Assembly (NCBI RefSeq): GCF_030814995.1 | Contig: NZ_JAUSVX010000003.1 | Span: 310,001 to 374,000, forward strand | From: Labrys wisconsinensis | GTDB taxonomy: Bacteria > Pseudomonadota > Alphaproteobacteria > Rhizobiales > Labraceae | Reading direction: 5' to 3' | Length of the DNA: 64,000 bases | In this document: positions 21,291-47,932 of the stretch, piece by piece | Layout of the letters: the number at the start of each line of letters is the position of its first letter | How positions within the stretch are numbered: the first letter of the stretch is position 1 | Program-made: the position numbers and the translations under genes | The notes under the pieces: model-generated | What the model saw: the letters and a program-made list of their open reading frames with translations, nothing else | Databases searched by the model: none | Told to the model about the DNA's origin: nothing

Positions 21291-21335
21291 TTGCGGAACA
21301 CAGTGCGAACATGTAGCACTGTTCATGTTTTGTTT
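21291..21335 (+). promoter_or_regulatory. lexA promoter with LexA boxes
   Basis: Seen: GAAC-N7-GAAC at 21296-21310 (the reverse complement of the alphaproteobacterial GTTC-N7-GTTC LexA site). It lies in the spacer of a promoter with -35 TTGCGG (21291-21296), 17 bases and -10 TAGCAC (21314-21319). A second, near-consensus GTTC-N7-GTTT lies at 21321-21335, over the expected transcription start. This is the expected autoregulation of lexA. Confidence 0.8.
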
Positions 21336-21377: not shown

Positions 21378-22094
21378 ATGCTGACGAAGAAACAACACGA
21401 ATTGTTGCGCTTCATCCACGAACGCCTGAAGGAGCAGGGCGTGCCGCCCTCCTTCGACGAGATGAAGGACGCGCTCGACCTTCGCTCCAAGTCCGGCATC
21501 CATCGCCTGATCATGGCGCTGGAGGAACGTGGTTTCATCCGTCGCCTGCCCAATCGCGCCCGGGCGCTCGAGGTGGTCAAGCTGCCCGAGTCCTCGGTGC
21601 CGGGATTCGGGGCCACCCCCTCGCAGCGCGGCTTCCGACCCAACGTGATCGAGGGCGCCCTGGGGCGGGTGCGCAGCGCCCCGGCGGCGCCCGCCGACGA
21701 GGATGCCGTCCGCTCGGTGCTGGTGCCCGTCATGGGCCGGATCGCCGCGGGCACGCCGGTCTCGGCCATCCAGAACAAGAGCCATACGATCAGCGTGCCG
21801 CCGGAGATGCTGACGGCCGGCGAGCATTTCGCCCTCGAAGTGCGCGGCGATTCGATGATCGAGGCCGGCATCTTCGACAACGACATCGTGCTGATCCGCC
21901 GCCAGGACAATGCGGAGACCGGCGACATCATCGTGGCGCTGATCGACGACGAGGAGGCGACGCTGAAACGTCTGCGCCGCCGGGGCGCCTCGATTGCGCT
22001 CGAAGCCGCCAACCCCGCCTATGAGACACGCATCTTCGGACCGGACCGCGTGCGCATCCAGGGCAAGCTGGTCGGCTTGTTCCGCCGCTACTGA
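21378..22094 (+). CDS. lexA: LexA repressor
   Basis: SOS transcriptional repressor that self-cleaves when RecA filaments form. Seen: 238 aa from ATG 21378. N-terminal winged helix ([16 protein letters not shown] ... [32 protein letters not shown]). The cleavage site Ala-Gly is in [10 protein letters not shown], the catalytic Ser in RGDSMIEAG and the Lys in [10 protein letters not shown]. An upstream in-frame ATG (21291) would place LexA boxes inside the coding region and is rejected. Its stop overlaps the convergent comEC stop by 7 bases. Confidence 0.97.
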
Positions 22095-42105: not shown

Positions 42106-45100
42106 TCAGACCTGCTGGACCGCCATCACGCCGGGAATGGCCTTGATGGCGCTGGTGATCTGCGGCGAGAGCTGGAAACGGCCGGGCAGCCGCACCTCGA
42201 CCTCGCGCCGCCCCTCCTCGATCTGCAGCACGAAGGAGACCTCGGCCTCACCGCGCTGGCCGAGGCGGCGAGCCACCGAGTCCAGCGCCTGGTCGCCGCG
42301 CAGGAACACCCGGATGCCGCGCTGGTTCTTGGCCGCCGCATCGTCCAGACGCTCGGCGGTGACGATGCGTGCCCGCACGTCCTCGCCGTCCTGCGCGGCC
42401 TGCACCGTCAGCAGGACCGGCGTGCCCGGCTCGAGCAGGTCGCGATACTGCGCCAGGCCTTCGGAGAAGATCACGGATTCGAACTGCCCGGAGGCATCCG
42501 ACAGCATGATGATGCCCATCTTCGAGCCGGTCTTGGTGCGCCGTTCGGAGCGCGACAGCACCGTGGCGGCGAGCCGGCCGGCCGAAGCGCCCTGCTTCAC
42601 CTTCTGGGTGAACTGGACCCAGGACGGGATCTGCAGGCGGCCGAGCACGGCGGCATAGGCGTCGAGCGGATGGCCGGACAGGAAGAAGCCGACCGCGTCG
42701 AACTCGCGCTGCAGCTTGTCGGCCGGCTCCCAGGGCTCGACCGGGTTGACCTTGAGCGGCTCGGGCCGCGAGGCGCCGCCGAACATGTCGGACTGGCCGC
42801 CGGTCTTCTCCGCCTCGGCCCGCTGGGCCAGCGCCATGATCGCGTCGATCGAGGCGGCGACGCGGGCCCGGTCGGGGTCGAGCTCGTCGAAGGCGCCGGC
42901 CGCGGTGAGGCTCTCCAGCATGCGCTTGTTGACGGCGCGCGGATCGAGGCGACGGGCGAAATCGGCGAGGTCGAAGAAGGGCTCCGCGCCGCGGATCTCG
43001 ATCAGGCGCTGCATCGCCGCCATGCCGACGCCCTTGACCGCCCCGAGCGCATAGCGGATGGCGCCGTCGTGCACCTCGAAATCCGGCCCGGAGCGGTTGA
43101 TCGAGGGCGGCTCGACCTTGATGCCGAGGCGCCGCGCCTCCAGCCGGAATTCGGCCAGCTTGTCGGTGTTGGAGATGTCGAGCGACATCGAGGCGGCCAT
43201 GAACTCGACGGGGTGGTTGGCCTTCAGCCAGGCCGTCTGGTAGGTCAGCAGCGCATAGGCGGCGGCGTGGCTCTTGTTGAACCCGTAGTCGGCGAACTTG
43301 GCGAGATAGTCGAAGATCTCGTCGGCCTTGGCCTTGGCAATGCCGCGCTCGACCGCACCGGTGACGAAACGCGCGCGCTGGGCGTCCATTTCCGCCTTGA
43401 TCTTCTTGCCCATGGCGCGGCGCAGCATGTCGGCCTCGCCCAGGGTGTAGCCGGACAGGATCTGCGCGATCTGCATCACCTGTTCCTGGTAGATGATCAC
43501 CCCATAGGTCTCTTCCAGCGCCGGCTTGATCTGGTCGAGCATGTAGTCGGGGTCCTCGCGCCCGTTCTTGCGGGCGTTGTAGACCGGGATGTTGGCCATC
43601 GGGCCGGGACGATAGAGCGCCACCAGGGCGATGATGTCCTCGAAGCGGTCGGCATGCATGTCGACTAGCGCTCGCCGCATGCCCTGACTTTCAACCTGGA
43701 ACACGCCGACCGTCTCGCCGCGCGCCAGCATCTGGTAGGTCTTGTCGTCGTCGAGCGGCAAAGCCGCGAGGTCCAGCCCGATGCCGCGCTGGGCGATGAA
43801 GTTGACGGCGCGCTGCAGCACGGTCAGCGTCTTCAGGCCGAGGAAGTCGAACTTCACCAGCCCGGCCGGCTCCACCCATTTCATGTTGAACTGGGTGGCC
43901 GGCATCGGCATGGCGGTCTTGGGGTCGTGATAGAGCGGCACCAGCTCGGTGAGCGGCCGGTCGCCGATCACCACGCCGGCCGCGTGGGTCGAGGCGTGGC
44001 GGTAGAGACCCTCCAGCTTCTTGGCGATGGTCAGCATGCGCTCGACCACCGGATCGGCCTGCGCGGCCTCGCGCAGCTTGGGCTCGTCCTCGATCGCCTT
44101 GGCGAGGGTCACCGGGTTGGCCGGGTTCTGCGGCACCAGCTTGCACAGCTTGTCGACCTGGCCGTAGCTCATCTCAAGGACGCGGCCGACGTCGCGCATC
44201 ACGCCTCTGGCCTGCAGCGAGCCGAAGGTGATGATCTGCGCCACCCGGTCCGCACCGTACTTCTCCTGGACATAGCGGATGACCTCATCGCGCCGGTCCT
44301 GGCAGAAATCGACGTCGAAGTCCGGCATCGAGATGCGTTCGGGGTTGAGGAAACGCTCGAACAGCAGGCTGAAGCGCAGGGGATCGAGGTCGGTGATGGT
44401 CAGGGCATAGGCGACGAGCGAGCCCGCGCCGGAGCCGCGGCCGGGCCCGACCGGGATGCCCTTGGACTTGGCGTGCTTGATGAAGTCCGAGACGATCAAA
44501 AAATAGCCGGGAAACTTCATCTTCTCGATGATCGAGAGCTCGAACTCCAGGCGCTGGCGATAGTCGCCCTCGCTGCGCCCGGCAGCCGTGCCGTGCGCGG
44601 CCAGGCGCGCCGCGAGCCCGTCGCCGGCCTGGCGGCGCAGCTCGCCGGCCTCGTCCACCGGCTCGGTGCCGGTACCGACGGAAAAGCGCGGCAGGATCGG
44701 CTTGCGGGTGCGAGCCCGGAAGGCGCACCGCCTGGCGATCTCCACCGTGGCGTCGACGGCCTCCGGCAGATCGGCGAAGAGCGAGCGCATCTCCGCCCGG
44801 CTCTTGAAATAGTGCTGGGGCGTCAGGCGCCGCCGCTCGGTCTCGGCGAGGATGCGGCCCTCGGCGATGGCGAGCAGCGCATCGTGCGATTCGTGGTCGG
44901 AGCGCGCGGCGAAATAGCACTCGTTGGTGGCGACCAGGGGCAGGCCCCTGGCATAGGCGAGGTCGAGCAGGAACGGCTCGAGGCGCCGCTCCTCCTCGGT
45001 GCCGTGGCGCTGGATCTCGACATAGAGGCGATCGGCGAAGGCCTGCGCCAGCAGCGCCGCGCGCTCCGCGGCCAGGGCCGGCTGGCCGTCGCGGAAGGCG

Positions 45101-45570
45101 ACGTCGAGCGGCCCGCCGGGGCCCCCGGTCAGAGCAATCACCCCCTCGGCCCGCTCGGCCAGCACGGCGGCGGCGAGGTGCGGCTCGGCCGCGGCGCCGG
45201 CCTCGCCGTAGGCCATGGAGGAAAGCGCCATCAGATTGGCATAGCCGGCCTCGCTCTGGGCCAGCAGGATCAGGCGCGGCAGGCGGCGCAGATGCGGGAG
45301 ACGGCGGTCCGGCCCCTCCTCCCGGTCGGCGAAGTCGACCGCGAGCGACACGCCGACGATCGGCTGGATGCCGGCGCCGGCAAGCTTCTCGGAGAACTCC
45401 AACGCCCCGAACAGGTTGCTGGTGTCGGTGATGGCGACGGCGGCCATGCCGTCCGCCTTGGCGAGGTCGGCGATCTTGCCGACCTTCATCGCCCCTTCCA
45501 GCAGCGAATAAGCCGACCGCACATGCAGGTGCACGAAGCCCGCGCCGACCATTTCACTCGCCCGACTCAT
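42106..45570 (-). CDS. dnaE: DNA polymerase III alpha subunit (replicative)
   Basis: Replicative DNA polymerase catalytic subunit. Seen: 1154 aa from ATG 45570; a GTG one codon upstream is possible, but AAGGGG is better spaced for the ATG. N-terminal PHP domain (FVHLHVRSAYSLLEGAMKV, then GVSLAVDFAD). Palm with the catalytic Asp motif MPDFDVDFCQDRR and GPGRGSGAGSLVAYAL; fingers with HASTHAAGVVI and YRPGPMANIPVYNARK; beta-binding and OB domains toward the C-terminus (GQFESVIFSEGLAQY). Length and the full PHP domain fit DnaE1 rather than the mutasome DnaE2. DnaA-box-like sites lie 100-120 bases upstream. Confidence 0.96.
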   Translation of the reverse strand: MSRASEMVGAGFVHLHVRSAYSLLEGAMKVGKIADLAKADGMAAVAITDTSNLFGALEFSEKLAGAGIQPIVGVSLAVDFADREEGPDRRLPHLRRLPRLILLAQSEAGYANLMALSSMAYGEAGAAAEPHLAAAVLAERAEGVIALTGGPGGPLDVAFRDGQPALAAERAALLAQAFADRLYVEIQRHGTEEERRLEPFLLDLAYARGLPLVATNECYFAARSDHESHDALLAIAEGRILAETERRRLTPQHYFKSRAEMRSLFADLPEAVDATVEIARRCAFRARTRKPILPRFSVGTGTEPVDEAGELRRQAGDGLAARLAAHGTAAGRSEGDYRQRLEFELSIIEKMKFPGYFLIVSDFIKHAKSKGIPVGPGRGSGAGSLVAYALTITDLDPLRFSLLFERFLNPERISMPDFDVDFCQDRRDEVIRYVQEKYGADRVAQIITFGSLQARGVMRDVGRVLEMSYGQVDKLCKLVPQNPANPVTLAKAIEDEPKLREAAQADPVVERMLTIAKKLEGLYRHASTHAAGVVIGDRPLTELVPLYHDPKTAMPMPATQFNMKWVEPAGLVKFDFLGLKTLTVLQRAVNFIAQRGIGLDLAALPLDDDKTYQMLARGETVGVFQVESQGMRRALVDMHADRFEDIIALVALYRPGPMANIPVYNARKNGREDPDYMLDQIKPALEETYGVIIYQEQVMQIAQILSGYTLGEADMLRRAMGKKIKAEMDAQRARFVTGAVERGIAKAKADEIFDYLAKFADYGFNKSHAAAYALLTYQTAWLKANHPVEFMAASMSLDISNTDKLAEFRLEARRLGIKVEPPSINRSGPDFEVHDGAIRYALGAVKGVGMAAMQRLIEIRGAEPFFDLADFARRLDPRAVNKRMLESLTAAGAFDELDPDRARVAASIDAIMALAQRAEAEKTGGQSDMFGGASRPEPLKVNPVEPWEPADKLQREFDAVGFFLSGHPLDAYAAVLGRLQIPSWVQFTQKVKQGASAGRLAATVLSRSERRTKTGSKMGIIMLSDASGQFESVIFSEGLAQYRDLLEPGTPVLLTVQAAQDGEDVRARIVTAERLDDAAAKNQRGIRVFLRGDQALDSVARRLGQRGEAEVSFVLQIEEGRREVEVRLPGRFQLSPQITSAIKAIPGVMAVQQV

Positions 45571-45673
45571 CACCGCACCCCTTTGTCAGAGTGGCGAGCT
45601 TGCCGCCCTGGCCCCGGCAAACCAAGCCGCGACCGCGGGGCGCGGGTGTATCGTCCCCAGCCTGTAGACGAGC

Positions 45674-45692
45674 TGTGGATGGTTGTGGATAA
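45674..45692 (-). promoter_or_regulatory. DnaA-box-like pair upstream of dnaE
   Basis: Seen on the minus strand: a perfect DnaA box TTATCCACA (45684-45692) followed one base later by the 7-of-9 match CCATCCACA (45674-45682). They lie about 100-120 bases before the dnaE start, in the 126-base gap after the small membrane ORF. Inferred: possible DnaA control of dnaE or an incidental site. Confidence 0.5.
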
Positions 45693-45699
45693 CTTTTGG

Positions 45700-45798
45700 T
45701 CAGAATCCGGTGACGAAGCCGCCCCAGACCGCGATCATGGCCAAAAACACGCCCATGGAAGCCAGCGCAGCGGCATCTTCTGCGAAACGAGCGAGCAT
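45700..45798 (-). CDS. 32-residue single-helix membrane protein under LexA control (candidate SOS micropeptide)
   Basis: Unrecognised small protein. Seen: ATG at 45798, 32 codons, TGA at 45700-45702, with GGAGG five bases upstream of the start. The N-terminal part is LARFAEDAAALAS (amphipathic, two acidic residues); residues 15-29 (MGVFLAMIAVWGGFV) form one transmembrane helix; the end is TGF. Its promoter (45827-45854) carries a perfect LexA box. It is transcribed toward dnaE, 126 bases downstream. Known: Caulobacter SidA, a 29-residue LexA-controlled inner-membrane peptide, blocks division through FtsW/FtsN. Inferred: an analogous SOS peptide; no sequence identity is claimed. It could also be a leader ORF in front of dnaE. 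Confidence 0.7.
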   Translation of the reverse strand: MLARFAEDAAALASMGVFLAMIAVWGGFVTGF

Positions 45799-45826
45799 AC
45801 GATCCTCCCGATCACTGGATGTATGC

Positions 45827-45854
45827 ATCATGTTCCATTTTTGTTCTTTGTCAA
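45827..45854 (-). promoter_or_regulatory. SOS promoter: LexA box GTTC-N7-GTTC between -35 and -10
   Basis: Seen on the minus strand: consensus -35 TTGACA (45849-45854), 16-base spacer and -10-like CATGAT (45827-45832). The LexA site GTTC-N7-GTTC occupies 45832-45846, filling the spacer. Repressor bound there would exclude polymerase. The predicted transcript starts about 20 bases before the ribosome site of the 32-codon ORF. Confidence 0.8.
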
Positions 45855-45944
45855 GCACCGCATCGGCGTTTCGTCGCAAAGCGTGTTCGGTTTGTTCTGA
45901 AAACGCCGCTCCAGAGGTAGCAAGCCGGCTATCGACCGCGCGTC

Positions 45945-46628
45945 TCAGGCCAGCTCGACAACCTTGCCGTCGCGCAGCGTGACGCGCCGGTCCATGCGGG
46001 CGGCGAGATCCATGTTGTGGGTGGCGATCAGCGCCGCAAGTCCGGAAGCGCGCACCAGCGCGGTCAACGTCGCGAACACATGGTCCGCCGTGCCGGGATC
46101 GAGATTGCCGGTCGGCTCGTCGGCCAGCAGCACCTTGGGCGCATTGGCGACGGCCCTGGCGATGGCCACGCGCTGCTGCTCGCCGCCGGAGAGCTCCGCC
46201 GGCCGGTGCGTCAGGCGCTGGCCGAGGCCGAGGAAGGCCAGGAGCTCGCCCGCCCGCTCGCGTGCCTGAGCCTTGGTGAGGCCGCGGATGAGCTGCGGCA
46301 GCATGACGTTCTCGATCGCCGAGAATTCCGGCAGGAGGTGGTGGAACTGGTAGACGAAGCCGATCCCGGTGCGCCGCAGCCGGGTACGCGCCCCGTCGTC
46401 CAGGCTGGCGGTCGGCTCGGCGCCGACATAGACGTCGCCGCCGTCGGGCTGCTCGAGCAGGCCCGCGACGTGCAGGAGCGTCGACTTGCCGACGCCCGAC
46501 GGGGCGATCAGCGCCACGGACTGGCCCGCCCATACGGAGAGATCGGCGCCGCGCAGGATGTCGAGCGTGGCCTCGCCCTGGCGGTAGCGCCGTTCGACGA
46601 CGTGAAGCTGCAGTGCCGGATCGGCCAT
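45945..46628 (-). CDS. lolD: Lipoprotein-releasing system ATPase LolD
   Basis: ATPase of the Lol system that extracts outer-membrane lipoproteins from the inner membrane. Seen: 227 aa from ATG 46628, overlapping the lolC/E stop by one base. Walker [14 protein letters not shown]-loop [14 protein letters not shown], signature [14 protein letters not shown], Walker [13 protein letters not shown] and the H-loop ATHNMD. A longer frame to 46850 is antisense-like in composition and rejected. Confidence 0.95.
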
Positions 46629-47932
46629 CACTCGTACCTCAGCGCCTCGACCGGATCGAGCCGGGCGGCTCGCCAGGAGGGATAGAGCGTGGCGAGCACC
46701 GAGAGGATCAGCGACATCAGCACGATGGCGGTGACCTCGCCGGGGTTTATCTTGGCCGGCAGGCGCGAGAGGAAATAGAGCTCGGGCGCGAACAGCTCGG
46801 TCTGGGTGAGCCAGGACACGAACTGCCGGATCTGCTCGATCCAGGTGCACACCACCACGCCGAGCACGAAGCCGGCGAAGGTGCCGGTGGCGCCGATCGC
46901 CGTTCCGGTGATCAGGAAGATACGCATCACTGCCCCGCGCGTCGCGCCCATGGTGCGCAGGATGGCGATGTCGGAGCCCTTGTCCTTCACCAGCATGATC
47001 AGGCCGGAGATGATGTTGAGCGCGGCGATCAGGATGATCAGCATCAGGATCAGGAACATGACGTTGCGCTCCACCTCCAGGGCGGTGAAGAAGGTGACGT
47101 TGCGCTGGCGCCAGTCCGTCATCGTGATCGGGCGTCCCGCCGCCGCCTGGATGGCGTCGCGGGCCTCGTCGACCCTGTCGGGGTCGTCGACATAGATCTC
47201 GATGGCCGTGACGTCGTTGTTGCGGTTGAAATAGGCCTGCGCCTCGGCGAGCGGCATGAACACGAAGTTGGAATCGACCTCCGACATGCCGATCTCGAAG
47301 ATCGCCACGATCGGGTAGACCTTGATGCGCGGCGTGGTGCCGAACACCGTCGCCGCCCCGCGCGGGGAGACCAGCGTGATGTTGTCGCCGAGGCGCAGGC
47401 CGAGCTGCTCGGCGAGGCGCGAGCCGACCATCACGCCGTGCCCGTCGTCGAACTTGTCGAGCGTGCCGTCCCTGATGCTCTGGCCGATGGAGGGCAGCTT
47501 CTCCAGGTCGGCCGCCCTGACGCCGCGCACCAGCACGCCGCCGGCGTTGAAGGGCGAGGATGCCAGCGCCTGGCCCTCGACGATCGGCACGGCGAGCTTG
47601 ACGCCGGCGGCCCCGGAGATGCGCTGCGCCACCGCCTCGAAGTCGGTCAGCGGCGTCTCTGTCGGCGTCACCACGATATGGCCGTTGAAGCCGAGGATCT
47701 TGGATTGGAGCTCGACGCGGAAGCCGTTCATGACGGACATGACGATGATCAGCGTCGCCACCCCCAGCATGATGCCGACGAAGGAGAAGCCGGCGATGAC
47801 GGAGATGAAGCCCTCCTTGCGCCGCGCCCTGAGATAGCGGAAGGCCATCATCCGTTCGAAACCGGAGAAAGGCGGCGTGCCGGTCGGCTCGGGCTTGTCC
47901 TGGGGTGTTGCTGCAGCGACGGCGCTCATCAT
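46628..47932 (-). CDS. Lipoprotein-releasing system permease LolC/LolE
   Basis: Inner-membrane partner of LolD. Seen: 434 aa with four transmembrane helices: one near residues 45-68 ([20 protein letters not shown] region) and three in the C-terminal third ([58 protein letters not shown]). A large periplasmic MacB-like domain lies between. [20 protein letters not shown] is the usual LolC/E start. Many alphaproteobacteria have one such permease acting as a homodimer, which the single copy here suggests. Confidence 0.93.

Follow-up and report, generated by a model that had tools for sequence, protein, structure and literature searches.

What is encoded by the short open reading frame (ORF) that lies between lolD and dnaE on the minus strand of this locus, and why would a LexA box stand in front of it? 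We addressed this question within the window, i.e., the whole 64-kb stretch of DNA that was analysed, and by comparison with related genomes. The coding elements of the locus are the following:

45700..45798, minus strand: small ORF of 32 aa, the proposed sidA orthologue (sequence, family conservation, pN/pS below 1, one predicted membrane helix)
45804..45808, minus strand: Shine-Dalgarno sequence GGAGG, 5 bases 5' of the ATG (sequence)
42106..45573, minus strand: dnaE, encoding the replicative DNA polymerase III alpha subunit, with its listed start 126 nt after the small ORF
45945..46850, minus strand: lolD ORF (ABC ATPase), the upstream neighbour, which served as the lolD query for the loci of relatives

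The earlier note had described a 32-codon minus-strand ORF with GGAGG five bases before its start codon, and this description was confirmed on re-reading: the ATG is at 45798, the TGA ends at 45700, and the product is MLARFAEDAAALASMGVFLAMIAVWGGFVTGF. The single transmembrane helix proposed there was likewise borne out as a prediction, AlphaFold2 with a 29-sequence alignment giving one helix at residues 2–31 (mean pLDDT 93). A peptide of 32 residues with this predicted helix would correspond in build to SidA of Caulobacter, a peptide of about 29 residues with one membrane helix. On the upstream side, the true start of lolD probably lies inside the ORF 45945..46850. A 277-residue ORF (45700–46533, minus strand), which uses another frame of lolD, continues through the small ORF in the small-ORF frame; it looks spurious and could mask the small gene in annotation.

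The regulatory elements considered here, together with the gene of the putative regulator, are as follows:

45832..45846, minus strand: LexA box GAACAAAAATGGAAC (GTTC-N7-GTTC on the opposite strand), in agreement with the extended box consensus GAACAAAANNNGAACA obtained from 53 loci with the same arrangement
45827..45854, minus strand: sigma-70-type promoter-like site TTGACA-16-CATGAT, enclosing the LexA box (promoter scan)
21378..22094, plus strand: lexA of this genome (PF01726, E 3.8e-17, matched span 21381–21566; ORF and ATG read)
21296..21310, plus strand: LexA box before lexA, ending 67 nt 5' of the lexA ATG at 21378, the sole other box of the window

The TTGACA hexamer occupies positions 45854–45849, and the -10-like hexamer CATGAT overlaps the LexA box by the last base of the box. 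This promoter-like site, with 10/12 matches, is the one found in the region 45500–46000, compared to 0.2 expected in shuffles, so both the sequence and the promoter scan uphold the earlier claim of a TTGACA promoter with a perfect LexA box inside its spacer. Taken alone, the presence of a LexA box in the window is not beyond chance: the GTTC-N7-GTTC pattern was observed twice in the 64 kb, the expectation being 0.86, and two or more were obtained in 20 of 100 shuffles. Genome-wide, it occurs 123 times versus 51 for the reversed pattern. The finding rises above chance because the ORF, the box and their place are conserved in relatives, as described below. The PF01726 cut-off is passed by one LexA in the genome, which is encoded within the same window, and by position the box at 21296–21310 is autoregulatory for lexA. 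With an exact GTTC-N7-GTTC in its spacer, and a lexA gene preceded by the same kind of box, the small ORF appears to possess the LexA-box promoter that characterizes sidA.

Several further sites of this type were recorded. Upstream of the promoter, at 45885–45897, GAAC half-sites are paired a second time, here separated by 5 bases rather than 7 (GAACAAACCGAAC). Elsewhere in the genome (G000), boxes at about position 33869 of contig C1 and 159214 of contig C6 adjoin genes for a DUF5131 and a Radical SAM protein, and a second dnaE-type gene (C4 294036–294821) lies near boxes C4:297656 and 297968. Among 20 regions with other boxes, 18 ORFs from 13 regions were scanned and some were named (DUF5131, Radical SAM, Macro, HD and others); no clean list of LexA regulon members emerged from these 18 ORFs.

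The family is represented by four further genomes, which belong to a single genus, and each of them has the small ORF, with 58–65% identity of the peptide. In a tblastn search of 297 genomes of the order, Hyphomicrobiales according to the earlier note, 106 had a match at E <=1, the weak ones including chance matches. Many weaker matches lie inside long frames. The loci judged were the best 30 places among the family and order matches. Twenty-nine of these 30 loci have an ORF of 31–32 codons with dnaE downstream, and 27 have an exact box 46–74 nt before the ATG, the exact box being missing from L024 and L034. One of the 30, L026 (E 8.6e-4), was rejected as a false match that has neither dnaE nor a box; the same genome has, upstream of dnaE (L295), a box with one mismatch and a similar ORF. 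A profile search of the peptide in 385 genomes of the class yielded no match with E < 0.003 beyond the order.

The pN/pS ratio in the frame of the ORF is 0.41 within its own genus, 0.21 in group f20 and 0.13 in group f36, compared to 0.64–5.6 in the other two frames of the three groups; within the own genus the contrast is small (0.41 vs 0.64 in one other frame). Family conservation and pN/pS values of 0.13–0.41 indicate, at the level of sequence comparison, that the small ORF is a gene. Conservation in relatives, on which the earlier note had let its proposal depend, is seen in the four family genomes, in the pN/pS ratios and in the survey that follows. Group f36 (L011, L020, L025, L028 and L030) additionally displays a second, oppositely oriented box (GTTC-N7-GTTC), which starts 18 nt downstream of the first.

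The survey was anchored on dnaE, so that its loci were not selected by the peptide. The gene was located in 206 of 212 class genomes (4 of them in the order) and in 136 of 139 order genomes, and upstream DNA was taken for 150 dnaE loci, usually with one or two representatives for each family group. The order contributed 73 of its 136 located genes, a number that counts the window and three congeners, and the remainder of the class contributed 77 of 202. The pattern scored was an exact LexA box followed by an ORF of 24–50 residues with a hydrophobic stretch, both before dnaE. It was present at 40 of the 73 order loci and at 13 of the 77 loci elsewhere in the class or, counted by family group, in 23 of 44 sampled order groups and 12 of 67 other class groups. 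Four scrambled boxes (CAAG, GACA, AGAC and ACAG) gave the combination at 0/150 loci each, and the scrambled boxes alone at 0–2/150. In the GTTC-N7-GTTC orientation there are 11 boxes in the order, 10 of them with the ORF, and 9 in the rest of the class, 2 of them with the ORF; this orientation was not taken as a control, since LexA boxes may be oriented either way and a second box is present at several loci.

The exact box and ORF are missing together at 33 of the 73 order loci and 64 of the 77 other class loci. Among the 33, three (L318, L286 and L295) combine a similar ORF with a box that has one mismatch, and most others show nothing similar by the filter used. At four order loci (L306, L320, L297 and L291) no ORF is paired with the box, and L320 and L274 have a similar ORF with no box nearby. 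In group f43, one member's peptide is matched by tblastn in 11 of 99 genomes; an exact box and a downstream dnaE accompany 10 of these 11 matches. So few matches, yet nearly all at dnaE with a box, suggest that tblastn undercounts so short a peptide. A small genome of the order (G007, 1.4 Mb; locus L338) retains both box and ORF upstream of dnaE.

These distributions bear on one alternative, namely that the ORF encodes some other small hydrophobic toxin, of the type I toxin or holin-like kind, under LexA control. A short, hydrophobic product and a LexA box would fit such a toxin. Its chromosomal place beside dnaE, however, is kept across many family groups, and database searches point to no toxin family: the peptide has no match in NCBIfam, just two Pfam models match it, both far below the cut-off, and the region 45400–46100 is without any Rfam RNA family match. 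We therefore regard this explanation as highly improbable.

A more specific identity is suggested by the Caulobacteraceae, four records of which were in the scan. One of them, Phenylobacterium sp. (L180), has a 30-residue membrane ORF with an exact box upstream, 27 nt before dnaE, and 105 of 119 genomes of its family match this peptide at E <=0.5. We collected 52 Caulobacteraceae loci from 50 genomes (L204/L246 and L225/L235 being pairs), with ORFs called by HMM. These loci were picked by peptide match, so the ORF is present in 52/52 by selection, whereas selection did not extend to its place, its precise length or the box. A length of exactly 29 residues was found in 42 of the 52 loci and an exact LexA box in 43; dnaE follows at an estimated 16–65 nt, likewise in 43 loci, with an overlap of 4 and 164 nt as the extremes; the dnaE starts were set by script, and the 5–7 nt gaps and the one overlap depend on the choice of start codon. 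A nucleoside hydrolase gene adjoins the 29-residue-type ORF, in divergent orientation, in five of seven inspected loci, and one of these hydrolases was confirmed (PF01156, E 8.7e-79).

This configuration can be compared with published data on Caulobacter, cited here and below from excerpts of the papers named. SidA is described as a 29-aa inner-membrane protein that is induced by LexA cleavage and acts on FtsW (PMC4211646). The tag of sidA is CCNA_02004 (PMC10769358), and CCNA_02005 is a nucleoside hydrolase (PMC3667746). In the older numbering dnaE is CC1926 and lexA is CC1902 (PMC1839093), and lexA is also CCNA_01979 (PMC11535069); with the resulting offset of 77, dnaE would be approximately CCNA_02003 and hence a neighbour of sidA. 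It is thus very probable that the 29-residue ORF found in Caulobacteraceae is sidA, the link being made through other Caulobacteraceae genomes, metagenome-assembled ones among them, and the published locus tags. The position beside dnaE is therefore a further property that the small ORF of the window has in common with sidA.

If the small ORF and dnaE share their place in two lineages, do they also share a transcript? In the scan of 45500–46000, there was no terminator-like site and no second promoter-like site between them. Given this and the closeness of the two genes in Caulobacteraceae, where the small gap leaves little room for a separate dnaE promoter outside the small ORF, we infer that the small ORF is perhaps co-transcribed with dnaE. 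A translated small ORF, sORF25, reported within the dnaE1 5'-UTR of S. meliloti (PMC10117765), fits one transcript. The alternative raised in the earlier note, that the transcript also carries dnaE, is thus in keeping with the locus and compatible with a SidA-like peptide.

Co-transcription opens two further explanations in which the peptide itself is secondary. According to the first, selection has favoured SOS induction of dnaE, and the small ORF travels along as a passenger on a dnaE transcript controlled by LexA. The uninterrupted stretch before dnaE and the gap of 16–65 nt in 43 of 52 Caulobacteraceae loci agree with it, but a passenger would not hold a pN/pS of 0.13–0.41 or such a constant length. 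Moreover, a Caulobacter lexA mutant filaments and a lexA sidA double mutant does not (PMC12700426); this SOS study makes no mention of dnaE in its main text. The passenger explanation is quite unlikely on these grounds. According to the second, the ORF is a leader or upstream ORF whose translation regulates dnaE, the peptide having no job of its own. Nearly all matched loci do have the ORF before dnaE, and both the translated ORF in the S. meliloti dnaE1 5'-UTR and the short Caulobacteraceae gaps would suit a leader. On the other hand, selection acts on the amino acid sequence, a helix is predicted, and the gap between the ORF and dnaE reaches 605 nt (L277). An attenuator or known RNA structure was sought and neither a terminator-like site nor an Rfam match was found, and SidA of Caulobacter is reported to work as a peptide (PMC4211646). 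A purely regulatory leader is accordingly very unlikely.

To examine whether the peptides are related by descent, we compared a set of 29 Caulobacteraceae-type peptides (A2) with a set of 29 from the order (A3). The hhalign comparison of A2 and A3 gave a probability of 88%, an E-value of 2.9e-6 (for a single comparison) and a score of 24.6 over 27 columns without gaps, 26% of the columns being identical. The underlying alignments were built by us, and for some peptides an internal start was chosen, a procedure that works in favour of similarity. None of 300 column permutations reached the score of 24.6, and when only the membrane part was permuted, 1 of 300 exceeded the real pair (28.1 vs 24.6). 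Both sets share a core consisting of an acidic residue-x9-F with A/S-L/F-x-S/A between, which also occurs in members of f43; this motif was defined post hoc, and its occurrence in 22 of 37 peptides versus 1.9% of shuffles is descriptive only. A tryptophan stands at F+7 in the order and at F+2 in Caulobacteraceae. Parvibaculum (L170) has tryptophan at both positions, and its peptide has a BLAST match to a peptide of each set. Homology to the Caulobacteraceae peptide is thus moderately supported, the peptide being short. Sequence similarity, place and promoter together support common descent, and the most fitting reading of the peptide is orthology with SidA, not just analogy. The earlier note had proposed an analogous SOS checkpoint peptide; its SidA-like part stands, backed by the place at dnaE, the LexA-box promoter, the size and the gap-free similarity, while the word analogous seems too weak, orthology being favoured.

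Since the shifted tryptophan could mean a different contact with the target, one may ask whether an orthologue of SidA, still in the membrane and under SOS control, has come to act on something other than FtsW/FtsN. The drift of the sequence outside the core and the move of the tryptophan from F+2 to F+7 speak for such a change. Against it, the acid-x9-F spacing of the core is kept in both sets and in the f43 members, and FtsW recurs as a target: YneA of Bacillus acts on it, and low-confidence models place ChiZ, SosA and SidA there too (PMC13396833). We consider a changed target unlikely.

The best explanation, which we hold to be likely, is that the small ORF is the orthologue of Caulobacter sidA and encodes a LexA-controlled peptide that blocks division, with a transcript running into dnaE. 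By the precedent of Caulobacter SidA (PMC4211646), LexA would repress the small ORF in healthy cells; upon DNA damage, RecA-stimulated cleavage of LexA would free the promoter, and the peptide would enter the inner membrane, where it would hold FtsW, FtsI and FtsN, the complex that builds the septal wall, in an inactive state until the damage is repaired. The transcript would continue into dnaE, so that expression of the replicative polymerase would depend, at least in part, on the LexA-controlled promoter. For this organism, both the induction by damage and the block of division are proposed by analogy with Caulobacter. More tentatively, and with somewhat less than even confidence, a LexA-controlled sidA-dnaE operon might be an old alphaproteobacterial arrangement, in which one promoter releases a division brake and raises the replicative polymerase; if so, division arrest and replication capacity would be induced together.

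SidA itself is known, and the present gene would be a further SidA-type peptide in another order. Neither a spread of SidA beyond Caulobacter nor its pairing with dnaE under LexA was found described in the open-access literature, as judged from titles and the beginnings of abstracts among the matches listed, and the open-access passages covered discuss SidA for Caulobacter only. Such tiny genes are easily overlooked: the start of Caulobacter sidA was corrected by ribosome profiling (PMC4117421), and sORF25 is missing from S. meliloti annotations (PMC10117765). The occurrence of the pattern in 23 of 44 order groups and 12 of 67 others provides a concrete candidate for an SOS division checkpoint in many alphaproteobacteria, and a connection of division arrest with the replicative polymerase gene can now be tested directly and cheaply.

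Among the known systems with which the locus can be compared, YneA, SosA and ChiZ are larger than SidA. They are described as Gram-positive, damage-induced membrane proteins that block division (PMC13396833), but they belong to other lineages, YneA and ChiZ are presented as unrelated genes (PMC4211646), and no membership in their group is claimed here. In the low-confidence model, SidA lies on TM7 of FtsW, at the face opposite to YneA, and its mechanism may differ (PMC13396833). DidA of Caulobacter is likewise a small membrane division inhibitor acting after DNA damage; unlike the gene proposed here, it is SOS-independent, activated by DriD and encoded at another locus (PMC4211646), the likeness being by description alone. 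By position alone, the small ORF resembles sORF25 of Sinorhizobium meliloti 2011, the translated small ORF in the dnaE1 5'-UTR; Hadjeras et al. raise the idea of upstream ORFs for 5'-UTR sORFs and name sORF25, and SidA is absent from the main text of their paper (PMC10117765). The closest likeness is to SidA (CCNA_02004): a peptide of about 30 residues with a single helix, a LexA-box promoter, a gene directly before dnaE and 27 columns aligned without a gap. Compared to SidA, the peptide of the window has 32 instead of 29 residues and its tryptophan at F+7 instead of F+2, its gene has lolD upstream and 126 nt to dnaE, and its activity as a division inhibitor is a prediction.
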